From: Lachnospiraceae bacterium NE2001
Lineage (GTDB): Bacteria; Bacillota; Clostridia; Lachnospirales; Lachnospiraceae
Direction: 5' to 3'
DNA length: 61,405 bases
NCBI GenBank assembly: GCA_900110635.1
Contig: FOEK01000021.1
Span: 9,901-71,305 of the forward strand
Shown here: positions 12,942-52,877 of the stretch, one piece after another
Layout: every line of letters begins with the position of its first letter
Position numbering within the stretch: position 1 is the stretch's first letter
The notes under the pieces: generated by a model
Told to the model about the DNA's origin: nothing
Seen by the model: only the letters and a program-made list of their open reading frames with translations
Database searches by the model: none
Position numbers and translations under genes: made by a program

Positions 12942-12958
12942 ATTGGAGAGTTGTTTAT

Positions 12959-16579: not shown

Positions 16580-16580
16580 T

Positions 16581-19193: not shown

Positions 19194-19251
19194 TGTGTTG
19201 AATTTATAAGCGCAGACTATAAGATAAACAGTGATAAAGAAGGTATATAAT

Positions 19252-21765: not shown

Positions 21766-21778
21766 AAGGACTCATTTT

Positions 21779-22273: not shown

Positions 22274-22298
22274 AAATATCGCTTAAGGAGTTTTATAT

Positions 22299-24083: not shown

Positions 24084-24146
24084 ACATATTTATTATCTGA
24101 TAATGAAGTAAATAATATCCAGTAACTATAGATTTGGAGGCGAGTT

Positions 24147-27432: not shown

Positions 27433-27939
27433 ATGGGTTTACTTGACGCACTTCTTGGTAAAAATCAAATACCAACCGTAACATCTATTCTGCCGTTAGC
27501 TGCAAAGCAGGAGATTCAGGCAGGAAGACTCCCGATTCTGAATACAGACAAAGTGTTTCTCAAAAAAGGTGAGAAAATACACTACATAGATAAGGCTGTA
27601 AACCTTGAAATTAAAACGGTTAAACAATACCGGCATGTAGGACATAGTGGTCCGGGAATTCTCAAAGGTAACAGATACAATGTTGGTGTAGCCAAGCCTT
27701 ACGAATATGAGGAATATGTTCAGCACCGAGGGATTCTTTATGTGACGAATCAGCGGATCATCTTTCAGGCTTCAGAGTGGGCTTTCGACAAAACCTACAG
27801 ATATCTGACAGCCATCCAGCCATATTCAAATGCTTGTGAAATCCAGTTTGGTAATAAAACATATAACCTGATAGTAGCAGATGGTGATCTGCTGTATCAG
27901 ACATTGCAGTTAATAAAGCAAAGGAGGCAGATGCCATGA
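27433..27939 (+). CDS. PH-like domain protein, 168 aa
   Basis: A TGAGGTGAG site precedes the ATG, with only about 16 bases of leader after the predicted -10 box. Residues 35-160 show a beta-rich pattern (VFLKKGEKIHYIDKAV, HRGILYVTNQRIIFQ, AIQPYSNACEIQFGNKTYNLIV) like bacterial PH/GRAM-type domains, in which 'G-LYVTNQRI-F' is typical. Such domains dock proteins to partners or membranes. The stop overlaps the kinase start, so the two are coupled. It may be a kinase substrate or tether. Confidence 0.7.
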   Translation: MGLLDALLGKNQIPTVTSILPLAAKQEIQAGRLPILNTDKVFLKKGEKIHYIDKAVNLEIKTVKQYRHVGHSGPGILKGNRYNVGVAKPYEYEEYVQHRGILYVTNQRIIFQASEWAFDKTYRYLTAIQPYSNACEIQFGNKTYNLIVADGDLLYQTLQLIKQRRQMP

Positions 27940-29237: not shown

Positions 29238-29267
29238 ATAGAGTATATAAGTAGATAGAGTATATAA
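29234..29267. repeat. 17-bp direct duplication after the kinase gene
   Basis: GTAGATAGAGTATATAA occurs twice in tandem and includes the kinase stop codon. It looks like a slippage duplication and may affect only the 93-bp gap before the vWA gene. Confidence 0.7.
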
Positions 29268-29330
29268 GTAGAATCAATACAGATTAATAGAACTGATTCA
29301 AATATAGTATAAACACAGGAGGTATTAAAA

Positions 29331-30104
29331 ATGGCAGAATTACAGAGACCAGGTGGAGAACTTGCAAGTAGACCACTTCATTTCTTTTGGGTGGTAGATT
29401 GTTCAGGTTCAATGATTGCAGAAGGAAAGATGGGAATAGTTAATAATGCGATTCAAGAGTGTATTCCAGAGATGGAGTCAGCTGCAGATAATAATCCGAA
29501 TGCCCAGCTTCTTATTAGAGCGCTTCAGTTTTCAACGGGCGCAAGCTGGCTTACATCAGATCCAGTTCCAGTAGAACAATACTCCTGGGCACCACTTGAG
29601 GCAAATGGTGTTACAGAGATGGGAAAGGCTTTTGATCTTCTGGCAGCACAGTTGAGCATACCGCCTATGCCGGATAGAGCCCTTCCTCCAGTTATTGTTC
29701 TTTTGTCTGATGGACAGCCAACTGATAATTATAGGTCAGGACTTGATAAGCTAAAGAAACTTCCTTGGTTCAGAAAGGCAGTTAAAATAGCCATATCAAT
29801 CGGTAGTGATGCTGATGACGATGTTCTTATGGATTTTACAGGAAATAGGGAACTGGTTCTTCAGGCTAACAATCCTACAGCTCTAGTAAAGATGATCAAG
29901 TGGGCATCGACAACAGCCTCAATGGTATCTGCGCCTTCAAGCAAGCCTATGAATTCCGTTGCCGCTTCAGTTCCATCTGGTGGATCAGTAGCAGGCGGTT
30001 CTACACCAGTAGATGATCCATTTGCAGGTGGTGGAGCTCCTCTTATCCTTGATATGAGTAATATACCAAATCCTGATGACTTTGATGATGGGGCTGTTTG
30101 GTAA
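29331..30104 (+). CDS. TerY-like vWA protein, 257 aa
   Basis: The vWA domain spans residues 12-205. The metal site is DCSGSM (about 23-28), the Thr of GVTEMG (about 101) and LLSDGQPTD (about 124), a full MIDAS set. The sequence HFFWVVDCSGSM, then NNAIQECIPEM and SNNPNAQL-like stretches, is typical of TerY. A flexible Ser/Gly/Ala-rich tail ends in a short acidic peptide. In TerY-P triads the vWA partner is thought to be phosphorylated or to scaffold the kinase and phosphatase. CAGGAGGT precedes the ATG, and the phosphatase gene starts 12 bp after the stop. Confidence 0.88.
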   Translation: MAELQRPGGELASRPLHFFWVVDCSGSMIAEGKMGIVNNAIQECIPEMESAADNNPNAQLLIRALQFSTGASWLTSDPVPVEQYSWAPLEANGVTEMGKAFDLLAAQLSIPPMPDRALPPVIVLLSDGQPTDNYRSGLDKLKKLPWFRKAVKIAISIGSDADDDVLMDFTGNRELVLQANNPTALVKMIKWASTTASMVSAPSSKPMNSVAASVPSGGSVAGGSTPVDDPFAGGGAPLILDMSNIPNPDDFDDGAVW

Positions 30105-30116
30105 AGGGGGGATTCG

Positions 30117-30962
30117 ATGAAGCGTTACATTTTCGGAGAATGTGTAAAAGGCGCTACCCATGAACGAACTGGAGTTTCTCTTCAAGACAGTAAAAAGATA
30201 GTTGAAGTATCTGAGGATATCACAATCATTTCAGTTGCTGATGGTCACGGAAGTCAGAAGTGTCCTCTCAGCGAATATGGCTCAAAGATGGCTGTGAATG
30301 TTTTCTGTGATGTCATGAAAAGATATATAGAGAGCTATGGAAGTTCAAAGAAGGAACTCGCCGGGCTCGTGTCATATCTTAATCGTGAAGGAGATACCAG
30401 ATTTGCTCAGGAAATCTGCGAAGAGTGGCAGACGAGGGTAAGAAGATCCTTTGTTAAGAGAAAAGATAAGAATGAAAAATACGGTCATCTCTTGGATGAA
30501 GATGAGATCAAGGATATAGAAGGTGTGTATTCGTTATATGGAACAACTCTTCTTGGGATGCTCATTACAGATACATTTGTCTTCTCCTTTCAGATAGGTG
30601 ATGGCGATATAAATATGGTGACAACTGATGATATAGCACCACTGGTTGAACCAGAGAAGTTCCTTGGAACAGAGACCCATTCATTGTCCAAAATAGATGC
30701 GTGGAAGAAGTCAGTTTCATCAGTAAAGATGAAGAATGCCAAGTCAGATCTCCCATACCTATATATGCTTTCAACTGATGGTTTTGCCAATAGTTATAAG
30801 AATAATGATGAGTTCTACAAGACCTGTAGAGATTACTTCGATATGATCGGTCAACACGGTTTCGAAGCTATAAAGGAAAACCTTGGGGGATGGCTCAAAG
30901 AAACAAGTCAGCTTGGATGTGGGGATGATATAACGCTTGTACTGGCGTATTTTTGCAGATAA
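30117..30962 (+). CDS. PP2C-type Ser/Thr phosphatase, 281 aa
   Basis: All PP2C metal motifs are present: VADGHGS (about 40-46), IGDGDIN (about 160), LSTDGFANS (about 218) and CGDDITLVL near the C-terminus. The enzyme removes phosphate from Ser/Thr using two metal ions and is expected to reverse the action of the kinase two genes upstream. No membrane segment is present. The ribosome site AAAGGGGGG lies seven bases before the ATG. It closes the tightly packed part of the operon; the next gene starts after 61 bp. Confidence 0.92.
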   Translation: MKRYIFGECVKGATHERTGVSLQDSKKIVEVSEDITIISVADGHGSQKCPLSEYGSKMAVNVFCDVMKRYIESYGSSKKELAGLVSYLNREGDTRFAQEICEEWQTRVRRSFVKRKDKNEKYGHLLDEDEIKDIEGVYSLYGTTLLGMLITDTFVFSFQIGDGDINMVTTDDIAPLVEPEKFLGTETHSLSKIDAWKKSVSSVKMKNAKSDLPYLYMLSTDGFANSYKNNDEFYKTCRDYFDMIGQHGFEAIKENLGGWLKETSQLGCGDDITLVLAYFCR

Positions 30963-36330: not shown

Positions 36331-36340
36331 GGGGATGCGT

Positions 36341-39300
36341 ATGGGCTTTTATGAGAAGGTAAGACAAGAAAACGTCATTAAGTATGGTACAAGGGTATCC
36401 AGCTATATTCCGATTATTATTAATCAGTATAGTGATCGTACTCATTTTATATATGAAATAATACAGAATGCAGAAGATGCAAGAGCTACTTATATCAAGT
36501 TTCATCTCTATAAGGATCGTCTTGCAATATATCATAATGGTCGTCCTTTTAATGAGAAGGATGTTAATGGTGTCTGCGGAATTGCTGATGGAACTAAGGA
36601 AGATGGTACAAGAATAGGTCATTTTGGTATCGGATTTAAAGCGGTCTATGGATATACTTCTACACCGGAAATCTATTCAGGGGATTTTTGTTTTAAGATA
36701 GTAGATTACCTGAATCCATATGAAATTGATAATTCTATAGGTATTCCTAAGTCTGAGACCTGCGTTGTTTTACCTTTTGACAAAAAGGCTGTATCGAAAG
36801 ATATTGCTTTTAGTGAGATACGAGAGGCATTAACATCAAAGATTTCAGCAGAAAGTATCCTGATGTTGGATTCTATCTCAGATGTTGAGATAAGTATTGA
36901 TGGTAATAGAGAAAATATCAGGATTAACAAAGAAAAAGGTTCAATAAAAGGTTCCAGGAATGTTTTTGATGTGAGTTTATTAACTACTCATGAGAATAAG
37001 CAGACTGGAGAAGAAAAAGAAGTCGAGTCAAATTATCTTTTCTTTACGGATGCAGAAGAAAGACCGACAGCTATAGTATTTAAGGTTCAAGGGAAAGAAC
37101 TTCAGGAGATAAAGAACAATAAAATCTATGCATTCTTCCCGATGGCTATTGAATCTCATCAGAGCTTTCTTATACATGCTCCGTTTGATACCAATCCTGC
37201 AAGAAATGAGATATTACAAGGTGCAGAGTATGGGCGAAACAATCTGGTTCTGATAGATAGTATATGCAAGCTTATTAACCTGGCATTTATTTGGTTAAGA
37301 GATAATGGATATCTATCTTTTGCCGGACTTAATAAAACATATCCTATTTATGAGTACGACGAATCTAATATCTTATATTCAATATATCAGAATAGTATAG
37401 ATATTATTAATGATGGTGAACCGATTCTTCCAACTAATACTCCGGGAGTGTTTAAGAGTATTAGTGAGATATGCGTTCCAGAAAATATGGGAATCACTAA
37501 TGTTTTTTCTGATAATGATCTGCAGGAGCTTACAGGTGATAAGAGTCTCTTTTGGATTTCAAAAGAAATATCTACAAAAGAATATTCAGATTTTAAGAAT
37601 TTCCTGGATAAAAACTTTAATCTTAAGACATATGAATGGAGACATCTTGTATTAAAGCTGACTGCTCCATTTCTTAAGCGAAAGAGAGTTGAATGGATTG
37701 ACCTTTTAATGTTCAACATTGAAAGCTTCTGTGTCAGAAGAGGTGCTCAACAAAGTCATTTTATTGATGTTTCCAATATACCTTTTGTAAGACTTACATC
37801 TGGAGAACATATTTGCGCTCGTAAAGATGGTAAGCTGCAAGTATATCTTAATAATCCTGCTATATGTGCCAATAAGATATCAGCAGATTATTTAAAGCGC
37901 GAGAGTATCAAGTCTTTTCTTCAACGTGCTCTTGGTATTCCTGTTTATGATATAGAACGTGAAACCATTGATAAGATTCTTCCGAAGTATGCAAGTAAGG
38001 ATATTGCGTTCAAAACGGATAATCATATCAGAGAGAATATAGAAGATCTAAAAGAAATAAAGGATGCAATTGGGATTAATCCGGCTATCATTGATCAGTT
38101 ACAGGACAAATATGTTGTGACCGATGGTAAAGATTGGTATAAACCGGCTGATTTATATATTCGTTCGATGGATAAGTATCGAACAGGATACTTTCTCGTA
38201 AGAGGTATAGTAGATATCAAGTATCTTGCTAATAATTATTTTGATGACACAGTAATGAATATCAAGCTTGATGAGGATTTTTTCAGGAAGATAGGATGCT
38301 CTTTAGGACTTAAATCAATTCATGCTGATAAGAATGAATATCTTCGTGCTGTCAAAAAATATATAGACAGCAAAACATCTCAGGAAATAAACAGTAGAGT
38401 ATTATGCAAGACATACATATCTAAGAAATGGGATTGGTCTTTCAATTTTGAAGGGTTCCCTGAACTCTTTAGCGATATTACTCCTGAAAGATCTCGGGAT
38501 ATAGCAAAGTTTTTAAATGGTCATATTCAGAAGTTTGATATACAGGGAGAGTTAGTTGGAGCGAATGATCAGCATTTTAGTGGTAGCGGTGTTGACAGTG
38601 TTGGCGCTTACTCCATGCTTGGGCTTATTCTTTGTCATGAAAAATGGGTATATATCAATGGTAATCCTGAGCCTCAGCGTCCGATAGATGTTGATAAAAA
38701 TGACTTAATCAGTGGTTATGAGCCTGCAAAAAGGCTTCTGAATATCATTCCTTTCAAGGAAGTAAAAAATGCTTTATTTGAATACCTTGAGTCCACTTAT
38801 AAGAATAAAGGCGATGTTGATCTTATAAGAAAAATGATGGCTGATCCTGAAGAATTACTTAAACTTGCAAAAGCTAAGGCAAAAAGTGATGCCAAAATCG
38901 CAGCGCAGGAAGAGAAAAAGGGCGGCTTAAAAGAGAGATATGAGAAGGCTGATAAGGCACAGACTGAAAGCACAGGAAAGGATGAAGAATCGCTTGAGAT
39001 AAATCCTATATCAGAAAAAGGATTGAATAAAAGAAGTGAAAAACTTGAAAAAGAGCTTATTGAGTCTCTGAATGAGGATACAAAAATTGCTCGAGGATTA
39101 CATTATACAAGGAGTAATTGCGATAGTAATGAAGTAAAAGTATTCCTTAATGAACAATATCGAGGTTTCTGTCAGATATGCCAGAAGAAAATTCAAAAAT
39201 GGAATGGGGAGAACTATTTTGAAGCAATTAATATAATAAAGCCTCATAAATTATACGATAATCTTGCAAACAGTATGGGATTAGGATGGAATACCTTGGC

Positions 39301-39517
39301 ACTTTGTCCTAACTGTGCTGCTGAATACAATTATTGTTCAAAGAAGATATCTACCTTCTATGAACAGGTTATGTCCCAGGAGGTTATACCGGATTCTGAA
39401 GATCCTATTGAGATATATGTTGAGATACCGGAAGGAAAGGAACGAAGAATTGTATATACACCGAGACATTTCCTTGCATTAAAGAAAGCATTTGAAGTTT
39501 TTGCTGAAGAGGAGTGA
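36341..39517 (+). CDS. Sacsin/Hsp90-type GHKL ATPase with C-terminal HNH-like zinc module, 1058 aa
   Basis: Residues 30-110 hold the GHKL ATP site in sacsin form: FIYEIIQNAEDARA, IYHNGRPF and IGHFGIGFKAVYGY. The middle is a large unknown helical region. Residues 860-910 are a charged coiled coil. The end (about 945-1010) has GFCQICQKKI, a NIIKPHKLYDN stretch and LALCPNCAAEYNY, which reads as an HNH-type zinc fold in which the usual second His is hard to place. ATG 36341 is chosen over 36335 because the GGGG ribosome site would touch the latter. I do not know a named defence system with this SNF2-plus-sacsin-HNH pair. Confidence 0.8.
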   Translation: MGFYEKVRQENVIKYGTRVSSYIPIIINQYSDRTHFIYEIIQNAEDARATYIKFHLYKDRLAIYHNGRPFNEKDVNGVCGIADGTKEDGTRIGHFGIGFKAVYGYTSTPEIYSGDFCFKIVDYLNPYEIDNSIGIPKSETCVVLPFDKKAVSKDIAFSEIREALTSKISAESILMLDSISDVEISIDGNRENIRINKEKGSIKGSRNVFDVSLLTTHENKQTGEEKEVESNYLFFTDAEERPTAIVFKVQGKELQEIKNNKIYAFFPMAIESHQSFLIHAPFDTNPARNEILQGAEYGRNNLVLIDSICKLINLAFIWLRDNGYLSFAGLNKTYPIYEYDESNILYSIYQNSIDIINDGEPILPTNTPGVFKSISEICVPENMGITNVFSDNDLQELTGDKSLFWISKEISTKEYSDFKNFLDKNFNLKTYEWRHLVLKLTAPFLKRKRVEWIDLLMFNIESFCVRRGAQQSHFIDVSNIPFVRLTSGEHICARKDGKLQVYLNNPAICANKISADYLKRESIKSFLQRALGIPVYDIERETIDKILPKYASKDIAFKTDNHIRENIEDLKEIKDAIGINPAIIDQLQDKYVVTDGKDWYKPADLYIRSMDKYRTGYFLVRGIVDIKYLANNYFDDTVMNIKLDEDFFRKIGCSLGLKSIHADKNEYLRAVKKYIDSKTSQEINSRVLCKTYISKKWDWSFNFEGFPELFSDITPERSRDIAKFLNGHIQKFDIQGELVGANDQHFSGSGVDSVGAYSMLGLILCHEKWVYINGNPEPQRPIDVDKNDLISGYEPAKRLLNIIPFKEVKNALFEYLESTYKNKGDVDLIRKMMADPEELLKLAKAKAKSDAKIAAQEEKKGGLKERYEKADKAQTESTGKDEESLEINPISEKGLNKRSEKLEKELIESLNEDTKIARGLHYTRSNCDSNEVKVFLNEQYRGFCQICQKKIQKWNGENYFEAINIIKPHKLYDNLANSMGLGWNTLALCPNCAAEYNYCSKKISTFYEQVMSQEVIPDSEDPIEIYVEIPEGKERRIVYTPRHFLALKKAFEVFAEEE

Positions 39518-39525: not shown

Positions 39526-42500
39526 ATGCCATTTGTACTGTTTAATCAAAGATACATTGATAATATAGACATAAATGATATCCCTGAAGAGTTCATAAAC
39601 TACTTTGAAGGGTTAGAGTATGATGCCCAGAAAAGAATAATAGAATCACGCCCTGATCTTGCTGGTGCACTCGGTTTTAAGAATACCGATTCTGAAGATA
39701 TTAGGATTCAGGAAAGCGATTCTGACTTTGTCAGTGATGATGAGACCGATGCTTTGGATGATGGTGATGACTATGAAGATTCGGTTTTTATCGATGGAGA
39801 TGATCAGGAATTAGCTCAGATTGTGAATGATGTTCCGCAGGAGTTGTTTGAAAATATTTATGAAGACTATGATATGGATTCCATAAGTGGAACAGCACTT
39901 CTTCCGATTCATTTACTTACAATCCCAGATGGTCAGGAAAAATGCAAAGCTCATAGATGTGAGTTAGAAAAAGTATCACTTTCATATAAAGTTAAAGGTA
40001 CTTATGGTATGGCATCCTTTGGGTTTGCTCCTTTCTGTTGTAAAAAGTGTAAAAGACTTTTTATATATGAATCTGAAGTAGAAGGCTGGGTAAAAAGATT
40101 TGATGAACACGAATTAGAATATAAGATTATTACTCGTGAGGATTCTCATAAAATAATAATGAGTCAGATGGAAGAGATTGAGGTTGATTCTACTTCGGCA
40201 TTGTATATTCCTGATGCATGGGCAGAAGATAATCCAATATGTCCGATTCATAGAACAAAACTGAACGTGTATCCTTATTATATTGGTAGTGAAGGTAATA
40301 AGATATCTTTCCATGGATATATATGTGATGAGTGTAATAAGACTCTTGTCCGTAGAACTGTTGCACTTGATATTGAAGAAGAATGTGAAAAAAGAGGTAT
40401 TTCTTGTCCAGAACTTAAGCCGATTCGTGAGGAAGTAAAGGCAACAAAAGCTGTGGTAAGAAAGATAGTTCCACAGTACATGATTGAAGATGGAAAAAGA
40501 AGTGATTTTCCGTATAAGGTAATCAATGAAAATACTTACTATCTAAATGATGATAATACTGTAGTTATTTCGGATTCTTCTTATTGCAGATTAGAAGGAC
40601 ATAATACTATTGAAGTTGATGCTGTGTATTTAGTTTATGATAAGAAGAATCATAATCAAGGTTATATATCAAGTATCGGTTATTGTACTCAGTGTCAGAA
40701 GTTCTATATGGACGAGGATGATTATAAGGTCATTTATTCTTATGGTCGTCCTGAATTTTCAATTATTCGAGATCTAGTTGATGACGAATATTTTATTACA
40801 TCTGGAGAAGTCTATAATCTTGAGAATGACCATTTAACTGCTCTTGAGAAAGAGATTCGTGCTGATATAAAAGATATAGAAGATAGAGAAGATTATCGTG
40901 ATATGTATGAAACTGTTCTTGGTGGTGACTATGATGCTATTAGTGCTTTACAGGCTAAGAAAGCCTGGAGTAACGAAAAGTATGGCGCACGTTTAAATGA
41001 GTTATATTCTTATAAATCTTCGCCGTATCGTTATCGTGTCGATATTATATTCAAAAATAAAACAGAAACCTATTATATAGGTGCAAATGATATTTTATTA
41101 AATGACGAGAAAAAAGTAATATCAATGGCCAGTGATATGGGCAGAGAGCTTATTAATACAAGGACTATTCATTATATTAAAGATGGCAAGCAATATGATG
41201 TTAAATTATCTCGAGAGTTTGATATAAAAGACGCGTATTTATTTGGATATAAAAATATTAAAACTGATGAGGATGCAATTTTCAGAGCAGGTATTACAGA
41301 TCCTTTTCTTGTTCGTGTTCTTAATCAGAGAAAAAGGCAACATGAACTGGTTGATATATTTGTAACTATTCAGGAAAATCAGAATACTATAGTAGATGAG
41401 TCAATTAATACGAATATTATTGTACAGGGATGTGCTGGTTCGGGAAAGACAATGGTACTTCTACATAGACTATACACCCTTAAGTATAACCATCCTGAAT
41501 TTGATTTTGGAAATGCTCTTATATTGACACCAAATGACAGATTTAGTCTGCACATAAAGGGGCTTGCTGAGAGTCTTCAGATTGGTAATATAGATAGAGT
41601 TTCTATAGAAAGCTATTATCTTTTAATGACAAGAAGGTATACGTTTAATATCCCTAATACTTATAAGATATCATCTGAAATATCAGTTAATAAGAAGTTT
41701 GTAGACTATATATATTCAAATGAATTTCTGGATGGCTTTAATGCTTCATATACGAAGGTCTTGGAAGATAAGAAAAAAATTATTGCTGTTATAGAAAGAT
41801 TATATGCCGGACTTAATGAGATGTATTCACCAATTCAGATGTCCAAAGATTCAGACCTTCTTCCGGAGATTAATAGAAGATATACTCATTTATCCAGTAT
41901 TGTACAGAAAAATGATAAGAGAATTGCTGATGCTGAAAAGACACTCTCTGATTTAATGAGTGAAAAGCAGCGTATATCAGATAGATTACCGGAGGTTGAG
42001 CAAAGATCAACAGGCATAATTAATGAGATACTTGTAAGTGTAAATGGTAAGTTAAAAACTCTATTTGAAAATACTAAATATAATGTATCACACTATGATG
42101 AACAGATATTGTCTTTGAAGGCTGAGGAGCAGGGATTACAATCTCAGATTTTAGTGTTTGGGAAAAGTGCAAAATTAGAGGATATCAATAAAAGATTTAA
42201 TATTGCTGAAAGGCATCGTAGAGAAGAAAAAGAAATACTTAATTTGATTGAACAGGCACTTCAGTACAATGCTAAGGATAAGGGTGAGGATGAAATCATT
42301 TCTTGGTTAAAAAGTCTTAAAGTAATAGATATGTCTATTCAGGAAGAGATATCTTTATATGAAGGAGTCAAAAATCAGTATTCAAATCTTAAAAGAGACA
42401 GTATCGATATCGATGATAAGATCCAAATAGCGACCGGAGAAGCAGAGCGACTTAGAAAAGAAAAATATCCAGATGATGTATATAAAGCTTTAAGGTATAT

Positions 42501-44493
42501 TGAAACATTTATGGAGGATAACAAGGACTATAACATTTTTAGAGAAGTCTTTGCTGATGCAACACGTGATTTCAAAGAGAAAAATAATATACGAACAACC
42601 GGTGGACTGCATAGATATGATCTGTATGCAGCTTTATGGTTTTGCAAGAAATATTATAGTGAGAAGATTGGTAAATCAAGATTTATCTGCTTTGATGAAG
42701 GACAGGATGTTGCGTTCAATGAATATAAACTTATAAGAGAATTGAATGGACCGGATACTATCTTTAACATATACGGAGATACAAATCAGTTATTAAAGAT
42801 AGGACGAGGTATTTCTTCATGGGATGCTTTGGAAAATGAGTATTCTATGAAAATGTTCTACCTTAATGAGAATTATAGAAACACTAACCAGATTACACGG
42901 TATTGCAATGAAAACTTTGATATGAAGGTAAAGACAACCGGAGTTGATGGATGCGCTGTTAGGGAGATTCCTCGACGAGATCTTGAAAAAGAATTATCAA
43001 AACTCAACCTAAATAACGATAAGGTGGCTATTCTTTTACCTAGAAAAGTTAAGAATAAGAACGAGTATGTTGAAAAAGATATTCTTCCTGAAGAAATAAG
43101 GAGGGCAATGGGTGATCAAATTGATAATGGTCGTATAGTTATTATGTATGTTGATGAAGTTAAGGGAATCGAGTTTGATAAAGTATTCGTTGTATCATAT
43201 AGAATGTTGCCTAATGAAAAATATATTGCTTATACTCGTGCTCTTTCTGAATTAATAATTGTAGTTGATGAAAGTATTCCAGATATTTCTGATACAGACT
43301 CTGAAAAGAGTCTAGTTGGTGAAATAGTTGACTGTTTAAGGAAGAATAATACTGAAGAAGCAAAAACGTTATATGAAGAAATATCCTTTGATTGGAGTGG
43401 GAAGAATAGAGTTGGATTCTTTATTCATCTATTTTCTCGTGTTAATCAGTATGAACATATTTATAAGCTGATGGGAACTGTACTATCGGCTGAAGAAATA
43501 AAGCGAGTTTATACTGGTTTGGAAGAAGATATAAAAGGATTAGTGAAACAACGCTGTAATTCAGAAGTCACTTCTTATTTAGCAACTTATCTTCATAAAA
43601 TGGGTAAAGATGATAGTATTATAGCTATATTTGATATTTTAAAAATATGGGGAGAGATTACTAGTATTCCTGGCATTGATATGCAGGAGCTTCTATTAAA
43701 ATCGACTTCCAAATCAGCAGGAGAGGCTTGGCTTAGTGAATTATTAAATGATGAGCTAAATATTTTTGATATTATTATGGAATCAAGGATAGATTCTTTA
43801 AAACCTACAGTAGCCTTTAATATATGTGTTATTGCCTGGAAGAGAGGAGATATCGATAAGATCCAGATTTCTAAAGTGGTTGAAATGTATTCTAAGAAAA
43901 ATGCAAAAGGAAACATGCAATATAGTTGTCCTCGTGAGTATTTATTGCAGTTTGCTATTTCATCTTCTGCTGAAGAATGGGACATTGTAGAGAATATTGT
44001 TAGAAAGTGTTCTGCACGTTATTTTTCTGATGAACGAATCAAGAGCTATCCGAAGGAAACGCTTTCACCAAAGGTTGTAAAAGCTTTGGAACAGCTCGTA
44101 GATTCTAAACTTACGCTCGCTCAGAAGATTTTTATGTATATGAATACATCTTTAAGAGAAGAAGCGCAAATGGATAGGTTTTTAACAATGCTTAAGGACA
44201 GACAAGGTATTCAAATAGATAAGTCCTTAAGTGAATTGAGAAATTATTGGATGGTGGGCATAATAAAGTATGTTACAGAAGATGGGTTTGTAAGGGTTGT
44301 TCCTCAGAATATGACTTCCTCTAGACTTATTTGTTTTTGGTCGTCTGATATTCATATAACAGGAGAAGATGGTACTTGGGTAGAACCTAAAGAAGGAGTA
44401 AAAATATACTTTCTTCTTAGAAGATTTGACGATGAGAAGAGTTTCTTTACATTACATTATCCGTGTATTAAACCTATTGAAATTAAGAGTTAG
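39526..44493 (+). CDS. HelD/UvrD-like superfamily 1 helicase with N-terminal zinc fingers, 1655 aa
   Basis: The N-terminal 600 residues contain an acidic segment and several Cys/His pairs (CKAHRC about 140, CCKKCK about 170, CPIHRTK about 239, CDECNK about 267, CTQCQK about 387), suggesting zinc ribbons that bind nucleic acid. A superfamily 1 motor follows: Walker A GCAGSGKT (about 635), an inserted coiled coil (about 790-1000), Walker B FDEGQD (about 1055), NENYRNT, KGIEFDK (about 1212) and AYTRA (about 1235). The insertion between lobes recalls HelD. About 400 further residues are unknown. It starts eight bp after the sacsin-like gene, so all three large proteins are one operon. Confidence 0.88.
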   Translation: MPFVLFNQRYIDNIDINDIPEEFINYFEGLEYDAQKRIIESRPDLAGALGFKNTDSEDIRIQESDSDFVSDDETDALDDGDDYEDSVFIDGDDQELAQIVNDVPQELFENIYEDYDMDSISGTALLPIHLLTIPDGQEKCKAHRCELEKVSLSYKVKGTYGMASFGFAPFCCKKCKRLFIYESEVEGWVKRFDEHELEYKIITREDSHKIIMSQMEEIEVDSTSALYIPDAWAEDNPICPIHRTKLNVYPYYIGSEGNKISFHGYICDECNKTLVRRTVALDIEEECEKRGISCPELKPIREEVKATKAVVRKIVPQYMIEDGKRSDFPYKVINENTYYLNDDNTVVISDSSYCRLEGHNTIEVDAVYLVYDKKNHNQGYISSIGYCTQCQKFYMDEDDYKVIYSYGRPEFSIIRDLVDDEYFITSGEVYNLENDHLTALEKEIRADIKDIEDREDYRDMYETVLGGDYDAISALQAKKAWSNEKYGARLNELYSYKSSPYRYRVDIIFKNKTETYYIGANDILLNDEKKVISMASDMGRELINTRTIHYIKDGKQYDVKLSREFDIKDAYLFGYKNIKTDEDAIFRAGITDPFLVRVLNQRKRQHELVDIFVTIQENQNTIVDESINTNIIVQGCAGSGKTMVLLHRLYTLKYNHPEFDFGNALILTPNDRFSLHIKGLAESLQIGNIDRVSIESYYLLMTRRYTFNIPNTYKISSEISVNKKFVDYIYSNEFLDGFNASYTKVLEDKKKIIAVIERLYAGLNEMYSPIQMSKDSDLLPEINRRYTHLSSIVQKNDKRIADAEKTLSDLMSEKQRISDRLPEVEQRSTGIINEILVSVNGKLKTLFENTKYNVSHYDEQILSLKAEEQGLQSQILVFGKSAKLEDINKRFNIAERHRREEKEILNLIEQALQYNAKDKGEDEIISWLKSLKVIDMSIQEEISLYEGVKNQYSNLKRDSIDIDDKIQIATGEAERLRKEKYPDDVYKALRYIETFMEDNKDYNIFREVFADATRDFKEKNNIRTTGGLHRYDLYAALWFCKKYYSEKIGKSRFICFDEGQDVAFNEYKLIRELNGPDTIFNIYGDTNQLLKIGRGISSWDALENEYSMKMFYLNENYRNTNQITRYCNENFDMKVKTTGVDGCAVREIPRRDLEKELSKLNLNNDKVAILLPRKVKNKNEYVEKDILPEEIRRAMGDQIDNGRIVIMYVDEVKGIEFDKVFVVSYRMLPNEKYIAYTRALSELIIVVDESIPDISDTDSEKSLVGEIVDCLRKNNTEEAKTLYEEISFDWSGKNRVGFFIHLFSRVNQYEHIYKLMGTVLSAEEIKRVYTGLEEDIKGLVKQRCNSEVTSYLATYLHKMGKDDSIIAIFDILKIWGEITSIPGIDMQELLLKSTSKSAGEAWLSELLNDELNIFDIIMESRIDSLKPTVAFNICVIAWKRGDIDKIQISKVVEMYSKKNAKGNMQYSCPREYLLQFAISSSAEEWDIVENIVRKCSARYFSDERIKSYPKETLSPKVVKALEQLVDSKLTLAQKIFMYMNTSLREEAQMDRFLTMLKDRQGIQIDKSLSELRNYWMVGIIKYVTEDGFVRVVPQNMTSSRLICFWSSDIHITGEDGTWVEPKEGVKIYFLLRRFDDEKSFFTLHYPCIKPIEIKS

Positions 44494-45987: not shown

Positions 45988-46764
45988 ATGACGACTAAAG
46001 AAAAAAATAAATTAATATATGAAGTTGCGTGTGAATATCTGTTGTCTATTGTTCCAGAAAGCATAGAAGATATAGAAAAATATTTACAGAATAACAATGA
46101 ATTGGTTTCATTGAATCAGGTGTATGAGATTCTTATTCAATCAGCCCAAGAATATCAAAGTCTCCCCAATGTTATAAAGTTTATTGAACGAAAAGAACAA
46201 ATTAAAGAAATATTATATGGTTATGATATACAAAAAATATCGGAATTGGATTTCGAAGCCTTATATTACCAATTCAGGGAAACTTTTGATGTAAAATCCA
46301 AAGATAGCAATATGAATCTTTGGTATAAATGGTCTAGAGCTGTTGTTGATAGTGCATCTTATTTATCACAGTTTAAAGATATAGATGATTTTAAAGAATA
46401 TGTAAATATGTTTGATAATAATACAAAAACAAGAATAGCCTTACCTCTTGTTATTTCAACAAAAATTCGTGGTGTAGGTTTTGCTTTGGCTTGCAATTTT
46501 CTTAAGGAATTAGGGTATATTAATTATCCTAAACCAGATGTTCATTTAAAAGATATTTGCTTTGGATTAAATCTATGCGATAAGAATCAATACGAAGTAT
46601 TTGATACTATTATTCAAATTGCTGATGATAATAGTGTTTCTCCGTATAGAGTTGATAAGATTTTTTGGCTGATTGGTTCTGGTTTCTTCTATGATGATAA
46701 TATAAGGATTGGAAGTCATAAAGTTGATTTTATTGAAAAGGTAAACGAAGAATTAAATGGCTAA
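45988..46764 (+). CDS. HhH-GPD-like DNA glycosylase-fold protein, 258 aa
   Basis: Residues 155-235 read as a helix-hairpin-helix plus Asp region: TKIRGVGFALACNFLKELG, then YPKPDVHLKDICF, with the Asp of PDVH at about 185 where HhH-GPD enzymes have their catalytic Asp. The N-terminal 120 residues are helical and unknown. The family removes damaged bases, but here the substrate is unknown and the catalytic Lys of bifunctional members was not found. AAAGGATGAGAG precedes the ATG. It is the last gene before the first 114-bp repeat. Confidence 0.6.
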   Translation: MTTKEKNKLIYEVACEYLLSIVPESIEDIEKYLQNNNELVSLNQVYEILIQSAQEYQSLPNVIKFIERKEQIKEILYGYDIQKISELDFEALYYQFRETFDVKSKDSNMNLWYKWSRAVVDSASYLSQFKDIDDFKEYVNMFDNNTKTRIALPLVISTKIRGVGFALACNFLKELGYINYPKPDVHLKDICFGLNLCDKNQYEVFDTIIQIADDNSVSPYRVDKIFWLIGSGFFYDDNIRIGSHKVDFIEKVNEELNG

Positions 46765-46775
46765 AAATAACGAGA

Positions 46776-46889
46776 TTAATGGATAGTAACGACTGTTCAA
46801 GGCGAGTCTGGCTTCGGCTGGATAACCTGCGTGACTCTTTTTTCAATATGCGTAGGCGATGTGGAGCATTCACCAGGTTGCAGGCGTTT
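46776..46889 (+). ncRNA. 114-bp structured repeat, copy 1
   Basis: This copy differs from copy 2 (51934-52047) at only two positions. Its ends, AACGACTG and CAGGCGTT, pair with one mismatch. Inside are GAGTC/GACTC followed by six T, a hairpin CTGGC-TTCG-GCTGG, and AACCTG/CAGGTT. The last helix crosses GAGTC/GACTC, giving a possible pseudoknot. It lies 75 bp before the SbcD-like gene. It may be a small RNA, a leader attenuator or a recombination repeat. Confidence 0.55.
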
Positions 46890-46964
46890 TTATATATAAG
46901 TGTTTAATGGAATAATTGGTTTTGAATTAGATAAAGACAATATAAGCAAATGGAGGGGTTCTAA

Positions 46965-48092
46965 ATGGTAAAGATATTTGTTACAGGTGATAATCATATT
47001 GGGAGAAAATTTGACAATTATAGCATTAAGGATCAACTAATAGAGAGTAGATTTACATGTCTTAAGAATATGGTAGAGATTGCAGAAAAGGAACAATGTC
47101 AGTTTTTCGCAATAACGGGAGATCTTTTTGATAATACTTATTCCATTGCAAAGAGGGACATTAAACGTGTTGTTGAAATTCTTGCTAGCTTTAGTCAAAG
47201 CGTTCTGGTACTTCCAGGAAACCACGATTTTTATTCGGGGAATGAGCAGCTATGGAATGTTTTTATGGATGTTGCTGGTACATATAGTAATATCATCGTG
47301 TTTAACGAGTACAAGCCGTATGAGTTTGATTGTGGCGATGGTACAATTGTTTTCTATCCGGCACATTGTGATAGTAAACATAGTGAAACAAATCGCTTAG
47401 ATTGGATGAAAGCTGAGGAAATAGATGGGAATAAGTACAATATTGGGATAGCTCATGGTGCTCTTGAAGGTCTTGCGATTGATACTGAGGGAGTCTATTT
47501 TCCAATGAGTAGAACTGAGCTGCACAGCATTCCGATGGATGTGTGGCTGCTTGGTCATGCTCATGTAACTGAACCTGCCATTCTTGCAGATGAGGAAGTG
47601 ACAGGTTATACCATTTTTAATCCTGGAACTCATGAACAGTTAGATTTGCATAATAATACTGAGGGTAATGCATTTGTAATTACATTACAAAATAATGATG
47701 GAATTAAAAAGGTTCTTGCTAAACGAGTTGTAACAGGAAAAATAAGATACTTTGATGAGGCATTAATCTTTAATGCCACAAATAATGAATCGTTGGAGAA
47801 AAAAATCGAGGATCTCGTGAAGGATTATCCGAGCTGTTCTATTGTAAGACTTTCTATTTCAGGAAGTATAGATGATTCTGATTATAATTGCAGGGAGGAA
47901 ATCTATGATACACAACTAAGCCGCTTTCTATGTTACAAGATTAATGATAATGACTTGAGTGAGAAGATTACTCGGGACAAGATTGAGAATGAGTTTTCTG
48001 AAATTGGATTTGCAGCCCAGTTTTTGGAAGAACTTCTAGATGATCCAGTCGAACTTCAGATGGCATATGATATTGTTAAATCGTTGAAATAG
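46965..48092 (+). CDS. SbcD/Mre11-like metallophosphoesterase, 375 aa
   Basis: All calcineurin-like motifs are present: GDNHIGR (8-14), GDLFDN (about 52), PGNHDFY (about 84), AHGA (about 163) and GHAHV (about 196). This is the nuclease half of SbcCD/Mre11-Rad50, which cuts DNA ends and hairpins with two metal ions. The C-terminal 120 residues would contact the ATPase. It is followed 13 bp later by the SbcC-like gene. Length and motifs fit a small SbcD subfamily of accessory loci rather than the housekeeping enzyme. Confidence 0.9.
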   Translation: MVKIFVTGDNHIGRKFDNYSIKDQLIESRFTCLKNMVEIAEKEQCQFFAITGDLFDNTYSIAKRDIKRVVEILASFSQSVLVLPGNHDFYSGNEQLWNVFMDVAGTYSNIIVFNEYKPYEFDCGDGTIVFYPAHCDSKHSETNRLDWMKAEEIDGNKYNIGIAHGALEGLAIDTEGVYFPMSRTELHSIPMDVWLLGHAHVTEPAILADEEVTGYTIFNPGTHEQLDLHNNTEGNAFVITLQNNDGIKKVLAKRVVTGKIRYFDEALIFNATNNESLEKKIEDLVKDYPSCSIVRLSISGSIDDSDYNCREEIYDTQLSRFLCYKINDNDLSEKITRDKIENEFSEIGFAAQFLEELLDDPVELQMAYDIVKSLK

Positions 48093-48105
48093 AAGGAGAC
48101 CAGCT

Positions 48106-50484
48106 ATGAATATTAAATCTATTAAAACCAGACAGTTTGCAGGTATTAAGAATACAGAGGTTGCTCTTGATGACGGTTTAAACATTCTTGTTGGTAAAAA
48201 TGAAACTGGAAAGAGTACTATTATTGAGCTTATCTACCAGATTCTTTATAGAAACGCTAAGCTAGATGCGAGAAAAGATAAGGACTTCAAAACAAGATTT
48301 ATGCCTTCCGATTCCAAGGGTGATGTTGTAGATGGGACTTTAGTTTTTTCAACTGTTGATGGAGAATATACACTTCAAAAAAAATGGGGAGCTTCCGAGG
48401 CGTGTGAGCTTGTTTCTTCGGATGGCACTATTATTGCTAATGAAGATATAATTCGTGAAATTATCGCAGGAGAACTTGTTTATAAGAAAGGTCTCTATGA
48501 TGATGTTGTTTTTGCATCTCAAAAGAGTCAGGCAAATGTTGTTGAGCATATTTTGAATAAACTTGATAAAAATGCTCTAGCTAAGCAGGATCTTGTTTCT
48601 ATTATTGCTTCTGAGGGGATGTCTTCTACTGAGGGAATTGCTCCGGAGGATATTGAGAAAAAAATTCAGGAAAATATTGATGGCTATATCGGTAATTGGG
48701 ATTTTACGATTGATTTGCCTAAAAACAGACGTGGTATTGATAATCAATGGATTAAAGGAAATGGAAGTATTATAAAAGCATATTATGATCTTGCAACTTT
48801 GGAGGGACAATTACGTAATTGTGAGATTACTGAAAAAGCAATTGATAATGATAATGCAAATATTCGTAAAGCAAAAGAAAAGTTGAAAGAATATCAGGAT
48901 GAGAAGGAGAATTATGAGCGATTTGCTAAGGTTCTTGCTTCTTATAAAAGTGATATGGAGCTTCGACAAAAGTATTTTGATGAACAAGTAAAGCTTAAGA
49001 AAAATCTTGATGAATATCCTAAAGCTCTTGCGTCTTATGGCAATGCATTACATTTAAGTACTCTTGTTAAAGCTGAGACTATAATTAATCAGTATAAAAG
49101 AATCCAAGGAGCTAAACAAAAACTTGATGAAGCAAAGAAGTCATTGGATGGAAAGATTGAAATAACTGACGTCGACGAGAAGAATCTTAATTCGATTGAC
49201 AGAAAGATTGACAGTCTCCAATCAAAGCTATCTAATCTAAATCTTGTAGCTAATATTAAGAAGCTCGGCAATACAGATATACAGGTTAAGTCTGTTGTTA
49301 CAGGAAAGGTAATTGAATTATCTGAAGGTGAGTTTGATATCAATGAAACTGTAGAGATTACAGTACCTGGTATTATGAGTATGACTATTGCTTCAAAGGG
49401 TGTTGATGTGGAAGAAATCCAGAAAGAGCTATTGGAGAAGAAGAAAGAGCGAGATGTACTTCTTAGTAGATGTAGAGCAAAGGATCTTGATGATCTTAGA
49501 AAACAGAAGGGTGACTATGAAAAAGCTTCCGGTGAATTAAATACTGCACAAAATACATACAATGATCTTGTTGTTGGTATTAATCTAAGTGATCTTGAAG
49601 AAGAATTTATCCTCGCTAAAGAAAATGAAACGGAATTGGATGATCTTGCTAAAAAGATTAATGAATTATGTGGATCTGAATCAATTGATGGGTTTATAGC
49701 TAAGCAGGAACAGATAATACTGTCTATAGAAGAAGAATACGGAAAGGAAAATGCTCTGGATTGCATGAATAATAGATTATCTGAAGTAAGTGTTAAACTT
49801 GAAAAGCTTGAATCTGTAAAGGAAGATGCTACTAATATTCCAGATGAGTATCTATTGATTGAAGATGTGGATGTGTACGAATCAAGGCTTAAATCAAACA
49901 TTGAAAATGCAAATGAAAAGCTTGATGAGGCAGTGGGATCTCTTCGTGGACATGAGAATGAACTAGGAGATGTTGATCCAGATGATTTAAGAAATAAGAT
50001 TTCTGATGCGAGAATGGAACTACAGAAGCTTAAAGATGATTACAAGAGATGGAATCACATTTTAATGGTACTAAAGATCACACGTGATAATATGGCTGGA
50101 GAAAGCACTATGTCAGATGTGCAGGATAAATTTGCTGATTATCTTTCTGTTATCACAGACGGTAGAATTGTTCTTAAATTTATGGATGAAAATATGGATG
50201 TAAACATCCAAAGTGGCGGAAATCATATGAATTATGAAATCTTATCGGAAGGTACCAAGGATACTATTGCTCTTGCTTTTAGGCTCGCTATGCTCGATCA
50301 TCTATTCCCTGATGGTGGCGGCCTTGTTGTATTTGATGATCCTTTTACAGAGATGGATGAGGATAGAACTAAGCAGGCTTGTAAATTAGTCCAGAAGTTT
50401 GCGGATAATGGGAATCAGGTTATTTTCGTTACTTGTGATAATAAATATAAAGAATTATTGTCTGGTAATACAATTGAAATGTGA
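48106..50484 (+). CDS. SbcC/Rad50-like ATPase, short form, 792 aa
   Basis: It has the SMC/Rad50 split ATPase: Walker A GKNETGKST (about 29) and, near the end, signature LSEGTKDTIALAF (about 712) and Walker B LVVFDDPFTEMDEDR (about 739). Coiled coil fills about 215-330 and 460-690. There is no CxxC, so no zinc hook, and the arms are shorter than in housekeeping SbcC (over 1000 residues). It should pair with the SbcD-like protein in an ATP-gated nuclease. AGAAGGAGA precedes the ATG, and a strong hairpin follows the stop. Confidence 0.9.
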   Translation: MNIKSIKTRQFAGIKNTEVALDDGLNILVGKNETGKSTIIELIYQILYRNAKLDARKDKDFKTRFMPSDSKGDVVDGTLVFSTVDGEYTLQKKWGASEACELVSSDGTIIANEDIIREIIAGELVYKKGLYDDVVFASQKSQANVVEHILNKLDKNALAKQDLVSIIASEGMSSTEGIAPEDIEKKIQENIDGYIGNWDFTIDLPKNRRGIDNQWIKGNGSIIKAYYDLATLEGQLRNCEITEKAIDNDNANIRKAKEKLKEYQDEKENYERFAKVLASYKSDMELRQKYFDEQVKLKKNLDEYPKALASYGNALHLSTLVKAETIINQYKRIQGAKQKLDEAKKSLDGKIEITDVDEKNLNSIDRKIDSLQSKLSNLNLVANIKKLGNTDIQVKSVVTGKVIELSEGEFDINETVEITVPGIMSMTIASKGVDVEEIQKELLEKKKERDVLLSRCRAKDLDDLRKQKGDYEKASGELNTAQNTYNDLVVGINLSDLEEEFILAKENETELDDLAKKINELCGSESIDGFIAKQEQIILSIEEEYGKENALDCMNNRLSEVSVKLEKLESVKEDATNIPDEYLLIEDVDVYESRLKSNIENANEKLDEAVGSLRGHENELGDVDPDDLRNKISDARMELQKLKDDYKRWNHILMVLKITRDNMAGESTMSDVQDKFADYLSVITDGRIVLKFMDENMDVNIQSGGNHMNYEILSEGTKDTIALAFRLAMLDHLFPDGGGLVVFDDPFTEMDEDRTKQACKLVQKFADNGNQVIFVTCDNKYKELLSGNTIEM

Positions 50485-50499
50485 TAATAGAATCACTTG

Positions 50500-50540
50500 A
50501 ACAGTTATTATAGCCCCCTCTTGTGGGGGCTCAAACTGTT
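50500..50540 (+). terminator. Two-part hairpin after the SbcC-like gene
   Basis: AGCCCCC and GGGGGCT form an inner stem around TCTTGT. AACAGTT and AACTGTT form a second 7-bp stem outside it. No T run follows, so it may act as a bidirectional or RNA-protecting hairpin. Confidence 0.6.
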
Positions 50541-50590
50541 ATATATCGTAGCAAGAAGAATTATGGAGAAGTATATAGGAAAAAGAAAGC

Positions 50591-51886
50591 ATGGAGGATT
50601 GTTTTTTTAACAATATAGGGTTTTCTTGCAAGAAAGATGATGAGAAACAAATAAAAAGATTGCTGGAAATCATAGGGGTTGATTTCAGCGCGTCGCTTGA
50701 ACCTTGTTTTTGTATGAATTTTGATTATTTTTCAAATGCATGTATGGGCAGGAATAATACCTCCTTAGGACTGGATGAAATATTCTCCATATTAAACAGG
50801 AGTTTTGAGGAGTTTATTTTATTGGGCGAATACGAGGATTATGAAAGCTGGTGTGATAGACATATTCGACATGAAGAAGTATATGACTCAAAAACTAATA
50901 AGATTTATATAGGTGATAACGAGTATTGCTATGGCAATATGACGATGTTTGGTCATAGCGTATATGATTTAATAAAAGAAGAGTGCGAAAGAAAAGCGTT
51001 GGAACGGGATGTTCCAGTAAAATGGAAAGAGTATGATCTCGGTGTAGGAGTTTATCCTGTTGGAGCTGATTTTTCTGATATATGTGAAGATGTATTAGAT
51101 GAAAAAGGTGATTTGGAAGAACTAGGTCAAAAAACTGAGATAAAGAATATAACAATAGTAAATATTGCAGAGGAAAAAATAAAAAAGATAATAGATGAAG
51201 CGGCTAAATATGGCTATGAAGATATAGTTCAACTTCTTAATGATTCATTTGATTTAAAGTATAATCCATCTCGTCCTGCAATTATTAAACATAAACCCAA
51301 TCAAGTTCAACGATATTTTGCAGATATGATCGATCATTTTTTGGAAAGCTGGGATTCATATACTGTTGAGGACTTGGTCAATCCGTGTGACAAAGAGATG
51401 TTAAATAATATTGGCAATGACGAGTATCTTCAAATCAGAAATATTCGATGGCATGAAGATTATCACGATTATATATTGGATTATTATTATAACGATAAGT
51501 ATCTGGGAACAGCAAGGGTACCTACAGATGGAATACTAGGCGGAGCGTTAGAATTAAAAGTTTTGGTGTCAGATTCCCCTGTTTATACTGGAAAAAAATC
51601 TTTATGGTATGAATATAGATTTCTGAATCTTGATTACAAGGCTATAAAAAAACATATATTAAGACTGTTTTCGGATGAAGTAGATAAGATAGAAGTTATT
51701 GATGAATACAAGACGGGTGATCCTGAGAATGATTATATAAGTCGCGAGGATATAAAGAAAATAACAATTAAGAAAAATGATTCAGGTGATTCATTAAAAG
51801 CATATAATTATGAAAATAAGAAAAAACTAATTGATGTTGCTAGAAGGTTTGGGATTGATTATTTAAAGTTTGATATACAGGAATAA
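50591..51886 (+). CDS. Hypothetical protein, 431 aa
   Basis: I do not recognise the family. The protein is soluble and acidic with many aromatic residues, several Cys in the first 40 residues (without a clear CxxC pair) and a predominantly beta-like C-terminal half (WHEDYHDYILDYYYNDKYLG). The ribosome site is weak. It lies inside the repeat-bounded module with the SbcCD pair, but behind their hairpin, so it may be separately expressed. It could be the immunity or effector part of that module, an inference from location only. Confidence 0.6.
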   Translation: MEDCFFNNIGFSCKKDDEKQIKRLLEIIGVDFSASLEPCFCMNFDYFSNACMGRNNTSLGLDEIFSILNRSFEEFILLGEYEDYESWCDRHIRHEEVYDSKTNKIYIGDNEYCYGNMTMFGHSVYDLIKEECERKALERDVPVKWKEYDLGVGVYPVGADFSDICEDVLDEKGDLEELGQKTEIKNITIVNIAEEKIKKIIDEAAKYGYEDIVQLLNDSFDLKYNPSRPAIIKHKPNQVQRYFADMIDHFLESWDSYTVEDLVNPCDKEMLNNIGNDEYLQIRNIRWHEDYHDYILDYYYNDKYLGTARVPTDGILGGALELKVLVSDSPVYTGKKSLWYEYRFLNLDYKAIKKHILRLFSDEVDKIEVIDEYKTGDPENDYISREDIKKITIKKNDSGDSLKAYNYENKKKLIDVARRFGIDYLKFDIQE

Positions 51887-51933
51887 TAAGGTTTGATATG
51901 GGGATAAAAAATGGAAGCTGACTATGTATTTAT

Positions 51934-52047
51934 TTAATGGATAGTAACGCCTGTTCATGGCGAGTCTGGCTTCGGCTGGATAACCTGCGTGACTCTTTTT
52001 TCAATATGCGTAGGCGATGTGGAGCATTCACCAGGTTGCAGGCGTTT
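51934..52047 (+). ncRNA. 114-bp structured repeat, copy 2
   Basis: This copy has the perfect outer pair AACGCCTG/CAGGCGTT and the same internal helices as copy 1. It lies 5158 bp downstream in the same orientation, 47 bp after the 431-aa gene and 98 bp before the next start. The T-rich end (GTTTCTTTTT) could serve as a transcript stop. Confidence 0.55.
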
Positions 52048-52145
52048 CTTTTTATATAATATTGAACCAGTCCTTGAATATGCGTCAATATTTGAATCAT
52101 ACAATGCAAGAAATACATTGATAGATAAAATAGGTTTTAGATTTT

Positions 52146-52877
52146 ATGAAGAATCAATATGTTGCTGATATTGGAGATTATGGTAAGTATTCTCTATTGA
52201 AAGCATTTACTGATGAAAAAATAAAAGTTGGTATAAACTGGTATTTGACATCGGATGATGGATCAACTGACGGAAGATTTACTGACTATTTGAATAATGA
52301 TAATCTTCGGAATTATAATCCACTGGTTTTTGACAAGCTGAAGATAATTTCAGCTAAACCAGAAAAATCAGTTCAGGATATAGAATATTCCAATATGCTA
52401 GTTGGCGCTAAATACTATAGTGAAAAAATAGAGTTTGAAGGTTCGCCCCAAGAACGTGAAAACCTGAGAAAAAGATGGTTTGATAAATCTTTAGAAGTGC
52501 TTGCTGGTTCTGAGTTGATTTTTATGGATCCGGATAATGGATTGCTTGAAACTGGAGATGCTAAAAAAATAAGGGCAGAGAAGTATATCTTACCAGACGA
52601 GGCAAAACAATACTATGAATCAGGATGTAATGTTGTATTTTACTGCCATAAGGGTCGGAGATCGTTAGAAAAATGGGACGAGTATAAGTCTTTTTTGCCT
52701 TGTTTTATTCCAGAAGCAAAGCCGGTTGTTATAACATTTCATAAGGGGACTCAAAGGTCATATATTTTTTTGATTCATCCCCATAACTATATAAATCTTA
52801 AGCATATAATAGATAAAGTATTGGTTACATGGAATCGGGTTTTTACTGAAGAATATATAAACTATATAAAAAATTGA
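52146..52877 (+). CDS. Conserved hypothetical 'DIGDYGKY' family protein, 243 aa
   Basis: The N-terminus YVADIGDYGKYSLLK and the middle motif LIFMDPDNGLL (about 125) mark a widespread unnamed family seen on phages, plasmids and islands. The FMDPDNG strand end and a YCHKGRRS segment recall a Rossmann-like fold of methyltransferase type, but no standard cofactor motif is visible. The protein has no signal peptide. It is the first gene after the second 114-bp repeat. The ribosome site is poor and the spacer may hold its control element. Confidence 0.65.
   Translation: MKNQYVADIGDYGKYSLLKAFTDEKIKVGINWYLTSDDGSTDGRFTDYLNNDNLRNYNPLVFDKLKIISAKPEKSVQDIEYSNMLVGAKYYSEKIEFEGSPQERENLRKRWFDKSLEVLAGSELIFMDPDNGLLETGDAKKIRAEKYILPDEAKQYYESGCNVVFYCHKGRRSLEKWDEYKSFLPCFIPEAKPVVITFHKGTQRSYIFLIHPHNYINLKHIIDKVLVTWNRVFTEEYINYIKN

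Follow-up and report, generated by a model that had tools for sequence, protein, structure and literature searches.

Base-pairing small RNAs of the RsaE class in Gram-positive bacteria are encoded by stand-alone genes that have their own promoter, end in a T-run, keep no fixed neighbour and carry a pyrimidine-rich loop. The bacterial Y RNAs, found together with Ro60/Rsr, have paired ends and a cloverleaf-like body, and integron attC sites have paired ends around an imperfect hairpin. We describe here an element found twice in a 61,405 nucleotide stretch of the Lachnospiraceae bacterium NE2001 genome (contig FOEK01000021.1, positions 9,901 to 71,305; the whole stretch is named the window hereafter and all coordinates refer to it). 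The two 114-bp repeats (46776–46889 and 51934–52047) lie in direct orientation, 5158 bp apart from start to start, and share 112 of 114 bases. Judging from sequence comparison, they most likely represent a stand-alone gene, present here in two copies, that encodes a stable structured RNA of ~105 nt, which would probably act in trans.

A first alignment of 16 copies had changes on both sides of 13 of the 23 base pairs. Alignment A3, composed of 27 homologues and including other genera, defines 29 pairs in helices P1 to P5; double-sided changes are found in 22 of them, the covariation that the preliminary description of this DNA had proposed to look for. In A3, 97.4% of the 771 cells are paired, versus 78.4% after shuffling and 35–44% when the partners are slid, and none of 500 shuffles reached the observed covariation level. 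RNAalifold, using the alignment as its only input, returned the same nested fold. The predicted structure shown by this comparison is a four-way junction formed by the closing stem P1, the tiny P2 hairpin, the P3 hairpin and a long P4/P5 arm. The end of this arm is a conserved loop (CUC-UUUUUUC...GCGUAGGC...GAG), whose apical segment, UUUUUUC plus GCGUAGGC, is the most conserved part of A3. The alignment also gives the sense strand, with 79 GU cells against 6 AC cells; a structured RNA with its strand set by GU bias is clear from these comparative data. Note that the distant members of A3 were retrieved with the covariance model (CM) R1, whose structure comprised P1, P3 and a GAGTC/GACTC helix. 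The covariation of P2, P4 and P5 was not produced by the R1 search because R1 contained none of these helices. Alignment A1 leaves out L003, L009, L010 and L020–L025 (truncated, hybrid, insertion-bearing or near-duplicate copies), and the corresponding longer loci, L082, L092, L093, L094 and L096, are absent from A3, as is L052.

The repeats had been proposed to form a pseudoknot in which GAGTC/GACTC is crossed by AACCTG/CAGGTT. This idea was dropped. GAGTC/GACTC has no double-sided change and its A-U pair is broken in 6 of the 27 homologues, although R1 rewarded this pairing. The second arm of GAGTC/GACTC, CUC, pairs instead with a downstream GAG and covaries with it (UA in 22 and AU in 5 of the 27 homologues), which gives the nested P5; the pseudoknot thus has no evidence in its favour. 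The AACCTG/CAGGTT pairing is real and becomes an ordinary helix once GAGTC/GACTC is removed.

The RNA family is absent from Rfam 15, as far as these searches reach: no match above the gathering threshold was found in the window, none at E ≤ 5 for the second copy with its flanks, and only tRNA matches at E ≤ 0.5 across 17 loci, relatives included. The earlier proposal of a new small RNA under selection is thus borne out by covariation, by the lack of an Rfam match and by the promoter and T-run statistics presented below. Among the papers listed by the literature search, none describing the family was found. The set of candidate structured RNAs of the human microbiome (PMC8040213) has the same kind of evidence and a possibly overlapping habitat; it was compared through its main text, where the string “Lachnospir” does not occur, and its tables, which stand outside this comparison, could include the family. 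Among the matches listed for the string GCGUAGGC, as for Eubacterium ruminantium combined with small RNA, the papers were unrelated by title.

Signals expected from an independent transcription unit were counted in 33 of 40 loci, leaving out L079, L082, L089 (shared flanks), L093, L094, L096 and L158; some of the kept rows share upstream sequence by eye (e.g., L104 and L151). The comparison was to 25 control windows taken from the same flanks. A −10 sequence that agrees with TATAAT at five or more of its six positions begins 12–18 nt before P1 in 28/33 loci (control mean 3.3, maximum 8) and it is extended by TGn in 12/33 (0.1 in controls). Runs of at least five T's follow P1′ in 19/33 loci (1.4 in controls), while six more loci have four T's and eight have fewer. 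The tail contains no TT dinucleotide in three loci, L099, L102 and L157, where genes for tRNA-Gly, tRNA-Val and tRNA-Val, respectively, begin a few nucleotides further on; L156, which has TTTT, likewise leads into a tRNA-Val gene. ARAGORN identified a tRNA gene directly 3′ of the RNA in 4 of 41 loci and in none of three later loci. An own promoter and terminator are statistically supported for the putative gene as a property of the family, and not by the scan of the window copies. The RNA would start at its own, often extended, −10 promoter and would end at P1 plus the T-run. At the four tRNA loci it would run into the following tRNA gene and then be cut from the tRNA transcript, its release being possibly ensured by tRNA processing.

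The window copies are both intergenic and each lies between co-directional open reading frames (ORFs). Copy 1 is found between ORFs 45988–46764 and 46965–48092, and copy 2 between ORFs 50591–51886 and 52146–52877, with a 62-aa minus-strand ORF overlapping it. Position, identity and spacing had been correctly given in the preliminary description, as confirmed by re-alignment and ORF positions, and the sequence motifs it listed are present. The two mismatches are at 46792 (A) versus 51950 (C) and at 46800 (A) versus 51958 (T). The base immediately before the repeat start differs between copies, and at the 3′ side the likeness fades in the T-rich tail. The best matching copy is copy 2, which scores 131.1 bits with R1 (built from 16 copies, both window copies included) and 113.9 bits with model R2, versus 126.5 and 108.9 bits for copy 1. 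With such scores and matches across the genus, the window repeat is far beyond chance. A third copy in the same genome, on contig C56, is degenerate (41.9 bits with the CM).

All features described in the following are on the plus strand. The predicted gene of copy 1 extends from P1 to P1′ at 46788–46888. It is preceded by a weak −10-like hexamer, ATTAAT (46775–46780), assigned by eye, whose place fits the family −10 and which fails the 5-of-6 cut. The 5′ strand of P1, AACGACTG (46788–46795), pairs with CAGGCGTT (46881–46888), one pair being broken by the A at 46792. P2 (UC..GA; 46797–46805) changes from U-A to G-C in 4/27 homologues. The P3 hairpin, closed by a TTCG loop (46806–46823), has double-sided changes in 6/7 pairs. 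In P4, where they are found in 7/9 counted pairs, the 5′ strand AACCTGcGTGA (46824–46834) pairs with TCACCAGGTT (46870–46879). P5 (CTC/GAG), with U-A to A-U changes in 5/27 homologues, occupies 46835–46866 together with the conserved apical loop (TTTTTTC...GCGTAGGC), whose columns are invariant or nearly so. The terminal T-run (46887–46891) overlaps and follows P1′. Copy 2, the higher-scoring one, extends from P1 to P1′ at 51946–52046, after a −10-like hexamer TTTAAT (51933–51938) that has 5 of the 6 TATAAT matches. Its pair table places the 5′ strand of P1, AACGCCTG, at 51946–51953 (pairing with 52039–52046) and the P3 hairpin at 51964–51981. The P4 and P5 arm (51982–52037), supported by the alignment, covariation and RNAalifold, carries the apical loop with TTTTTTC at 51996–52002 and GCGTAGGC at 52008–52015, and a T-rich tail, TTTCTTTTT, follows at 52045–52053. 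Copy 2 looks like the intact copy, while in copy 1 the −10 is weaker and one pair of P1 is broken; one of them is probably a recent duplicate of the other.

The distribution of the RNA was surveyed in samples of 61 (genus), 397 (family), 295 (order) and 398 (phylum) genomes, with one genome per species. The counts include the NE2001 genome. Whenever more than 40 genomes were scanned, the filters were stricter and weak matches were lost. Within the genus, BLAST identified matches in 18/61 genomes and the CM in 19/61, both at E ≤ 0.01 and at E ≤ 0.001. The family sample yielded 10/397 genomes with R1 and 17/397 with R2, the order sample 5/295, all from the same family, and the phylum sample only NE2001 itself (1/398). 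A weak match in G143 (E = 0.0017 with R1) reaches only 15.5 bits with R2 and was taken as chance. Among the contigs of named genomes that were scanned, 17 stretches match, all titled Lachnospiraceae or Eubacterium; they include Eubacterium ruminantium ATCC 17233 and Lachnospiraceae AC2031. Of the 19 genus genomes with the RNA, 15 have a single match, G000 (NE2001) and G029 have three each, and G020 and G044 have two, partial or degenerate matches being counted.

A tree of rpoB was obtained for 18 of 30 chosen genomes (19 positive and 11 negative for the RNA), as seven had no match and five only a partial one. On this tree the presence of the RNA requires 3 changes, compared to 6.2 with shuffled labels (an equally low count in 4 of 500 shuffles), and all seven rows of one clade have the RNA. 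The more alike two genomes are in rpoB, the more alike are their RNAs (rho 0.62; 36 pairs, 9 species). Clustered presence and rpoB-tracking identity are as expected for a retained gene. Exchange is suggested by the RNA of G020, whose identity is 0.85 with the RNA of the distant G045 and only 0.55–0.71 with the RNAs of five genomes from its own clade, and by the G029 copy on contig C43, which joins the 5′ half of one type to the 3′ half of the other. The picture is that of a gene that would be mostly inherited and sometimes exchanged, at changing places of the chromosome.

A second subclass, found in G186, G287, G312 and G323 (by eye also in G1047 and G120), keeps P1–P4 and has a different apical loop: UCAC/UCAA..AUCC, read by eye, in place of the UUUUUUC..GCGUAGGC of subclass 1. 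Palindromic inserts were also found, in the apical loop of one G029 copy and beside a 3′ half copy of G020, and G387 has other hairpins. A GC-rich palindromic element (GCGCTCGATTGCGAAGCAATCGA..) lies inside or at the end of copies L021/L094 and L023/L106, with a related one in L020/L093; in L094 it splits GCGTAGGC. Loop variation and inserts fit a scaffold with a changeable head, though some of the insert-bearing or variant copies may be dead.

Flanking genes differ between most loci. The 50 flanking proteins scanned, 40 of them from outside the window, include PNPOx, NUDIX, macro, patatin, biotin ligase, flavodoxin, EAL, permease and other types. When the neighbours within 6 kb were clustered, no partner shared across the loci emerged; the widest clusters cover seven of them, at many different distances. 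Even in the close trio G000, G004 and G007 (whose contig has only 6 kb in G007) the RNA is found beside mostly different genes. Shared contexts are those of L077/L079 on both sides, of L081/L082 upstream and of L078/L081 downstream. In L081, compared to L082 and L078, co-directional gene arrays differ by deletions placed almost exactly at stop/start codon junctions; L077 and L079 carry repeated intergenic palindromes of type GGTACCTGGCACCTTTTGGCGAAAAGGTACCGTGTACC. The spacer between the patatin and birA genes contains the RNA in G032. Seven further species have this gene pair without the RNA between the two genes, and one of them, G001, has it elsewhere. Insertion in one lineage rather than several losses is not proved here because the spacers are too diverged to define an exact junction. 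None of the 40 flanking proteins scanned, which do not cover every downstream gene, matches the ToxN family, and no common neighbour speaks for the RNA of a type III toxin-antitoxin system (ToxI).

These scattered positions, with copies at different sites across many species, are what would be seen if the repeats were a non-autonomous mobile DNA element (MITE- or REP-like) whose hairpins serve a transposase and whose RNA features are by-products. The window copies share only the ~115-bp unit, the filled patatin-birA spacer of G032 faces empty ones in seven other species, and some copies harbour palindromic elements. We nevertheless consider this explanation unlikely: the 15 of 19 positive genus genomes with one match, the promoter and T-run at a fixed place, the GU-biased strand, the vertical signal on the rpoB tree and the same locus being kept in some sister species (L077/L079, L081/L082) all argue against it. 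BLAST of copy 2 against phage and plasmid records gave no match. Viral carriage was also discarded, as the six viral contigs retrieved with one pattern are chance matches in unrelated sequence, in which the CM finds none. The preliminary description had further suggested that the repeats are the ends of a mobile SbcCD cassette, i.e., attC-like recombination sites. Two direct copies around three genes in the window, the deletions at gene borders near the element in L081/L082 and paired ends superficially resembling attC agree with it, but it is the least probable of the explanations weighed here and was rejected. The RNA is elsewhere mostly solitary and among other genes, its paired ends vary around a conserved centre, and pieces of an SbcD/SbcC-like (Mre11/Rad50-like) pair lie together in G002, where no RNA match was found. 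The pair at 46965–50484 is Mre11/Rad50-like, and its SbcCD label holds only approximately, as the matches to the SbcD subfamily (34.7 bits; cut-off 77.65) and to Rad50 (61.9 bits; cut-off 700) are far below their cut-offs; the same segment matches LmuB of Lamassu (4.1e-19).

A cis-acting operon element placed between co-directional genes (an attenuator, an antiterminator or a processing site) could account for the nearest ORF being on the same strand in 24/31 cases upstream and 27/30 downstream (32 loci; ORFs of at least 80 aa from crude calling, with some shared flanks) and for the RNA often lying 0–50 nt past the upstream stop codon. This is quite improbable given the −10 found right before P1 in 28/33 loci, the opposite-strand upstream ORF in 7/31, the tRNA genes directly 3′ in four loci and the lack of a shared regulated gene; no common gene type was found downstream, and the attenuator put forward earlier fails on this point. 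A small self-cleaving ribozyme would agree with the compact junction, conserved loop and scattered positions; it is very improbable in view of the promoter and T-run statistics and of the absence of matches to Rfam ribozyme families.

Several observations also weigh against a stand-alone trans-acting RNA gene. By scan, the window copies lack a full sigma-70 promoter and a terminator hairpin, and copy 1 is among the five copies that miss the −10 cut. As the stem that closes the entire RNA, P1 is not a textbook terminator hairpin, and in L077, L080, L085, L090 and L154 the longest T-run has 2–3 T's with no adjoining tRNA gene. Copy 2 folded alone has a z-score of −1.55, and its reverse complement one of −2.19. 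The genomic contexts are not wholly unrelated, since a NERD-domain protein is encoded 3′ of the RNA both in G000, by the second gene past copy 2, and in G004, by the first gene; the two loci have no nucleotide similarity beyond the element. The RNA is dispensable, as 42/61 genus genomes, several of them incomplete, have no match. Finally, pairing of the loop as an anti-Shine-Dalgarno sequence has no specific support: CUCUUUUUUC favours the stretches that precede 35 start codons of the window, but 42 of 100 shuffled loops perform no worse.

The stand-alone gene remains our preferred explanation. Its RNA would use the apical loop to act in trans on a partner whose gene lies elsewhere. Our leading guess, a tentative one, is regulation of mRNAs by base pairing; a dedicated protein partner comes next and is held with somewhat greater reserve. 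It is conceivable, if rather doubtful, that the family represents a new class of stable RNA in which a four-way-junction scaffold with an exchangeable apical loop is inherited within clades and relocates, by some copying mechanism and with a partner, as a bare promoter-to-terminator unit of ~120 bp. If so, it would offer a tractable case of small RNA genes that shift place while their sequence is inherited. The present data give a large family of gut and rumen bacteria a well-supported RNA family with a conserved loop. Its consensus fold is of sufficient quality for probing and pull-down, and the RNA is present in two named strains.

Other parts of the window were also annotated. A BREX island (8083–26240) encodes BrxA, BrxB, BrxC, two PglX-like proteins, PglZ and BrxL (PADLOC matches). 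The PglX-like genes code for 1206 and 870 aa, the second matching only positions 1–869 of the 1174-position profile. Genes for a kinase (weak PADLOC matches) and for vWA-like and PP2C-like proteins, the last two recognized by eye from their N-termini, follow in a row at 27936–30962. A 1655-aa protein with helicase-type matches and weak similarity to HelD, the RNA polymerase recycling motor, is encoded at 39526–44493, adjoining the gene of a protein with a sacsin-like ATP-binding domain (36335–39517). REP-like palindromes around AAGACAGGGGACGGTTCTCTGTCTT are found at 144–261, 1485, 1876, 54303, 55989, 57784 and 60002, and the start of an IS200-type transposase gene was recognized by eye at 61212.

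The described systems resemble the new RNA to different extents, the likenesses being taken from their general description. Paired ends around an imperfect hairpin recall integron attC sites, but the new RNA has a conserved centre, a promoter and a T-run, and is mostly solitary; attC sites and other cassette ends occur in arrays bounding cassettes, an arrangement at odds with 15 of 19 positive genus genomes having one match. Paired ends and a cloverleaf-like body are shared with the bacterial Y RNAs. No match to the Ro protein (TROVE, PF05731) was found in any of the 61 genus genomes, the control genome of Deinobacterium chartae being positive, and the Y RNA reading is therefore disfavoured. 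From the RsaE class the new RNA differs by the four-way junction closed by P1, by the absence of an Rfam 15 match and by a pairing to ribosome-binding sites no better than that of shuffled loops; with it, it has in common the own promoter, the T-run end, the lack of a fixed neighbour and the pyrimidine-rich loop.

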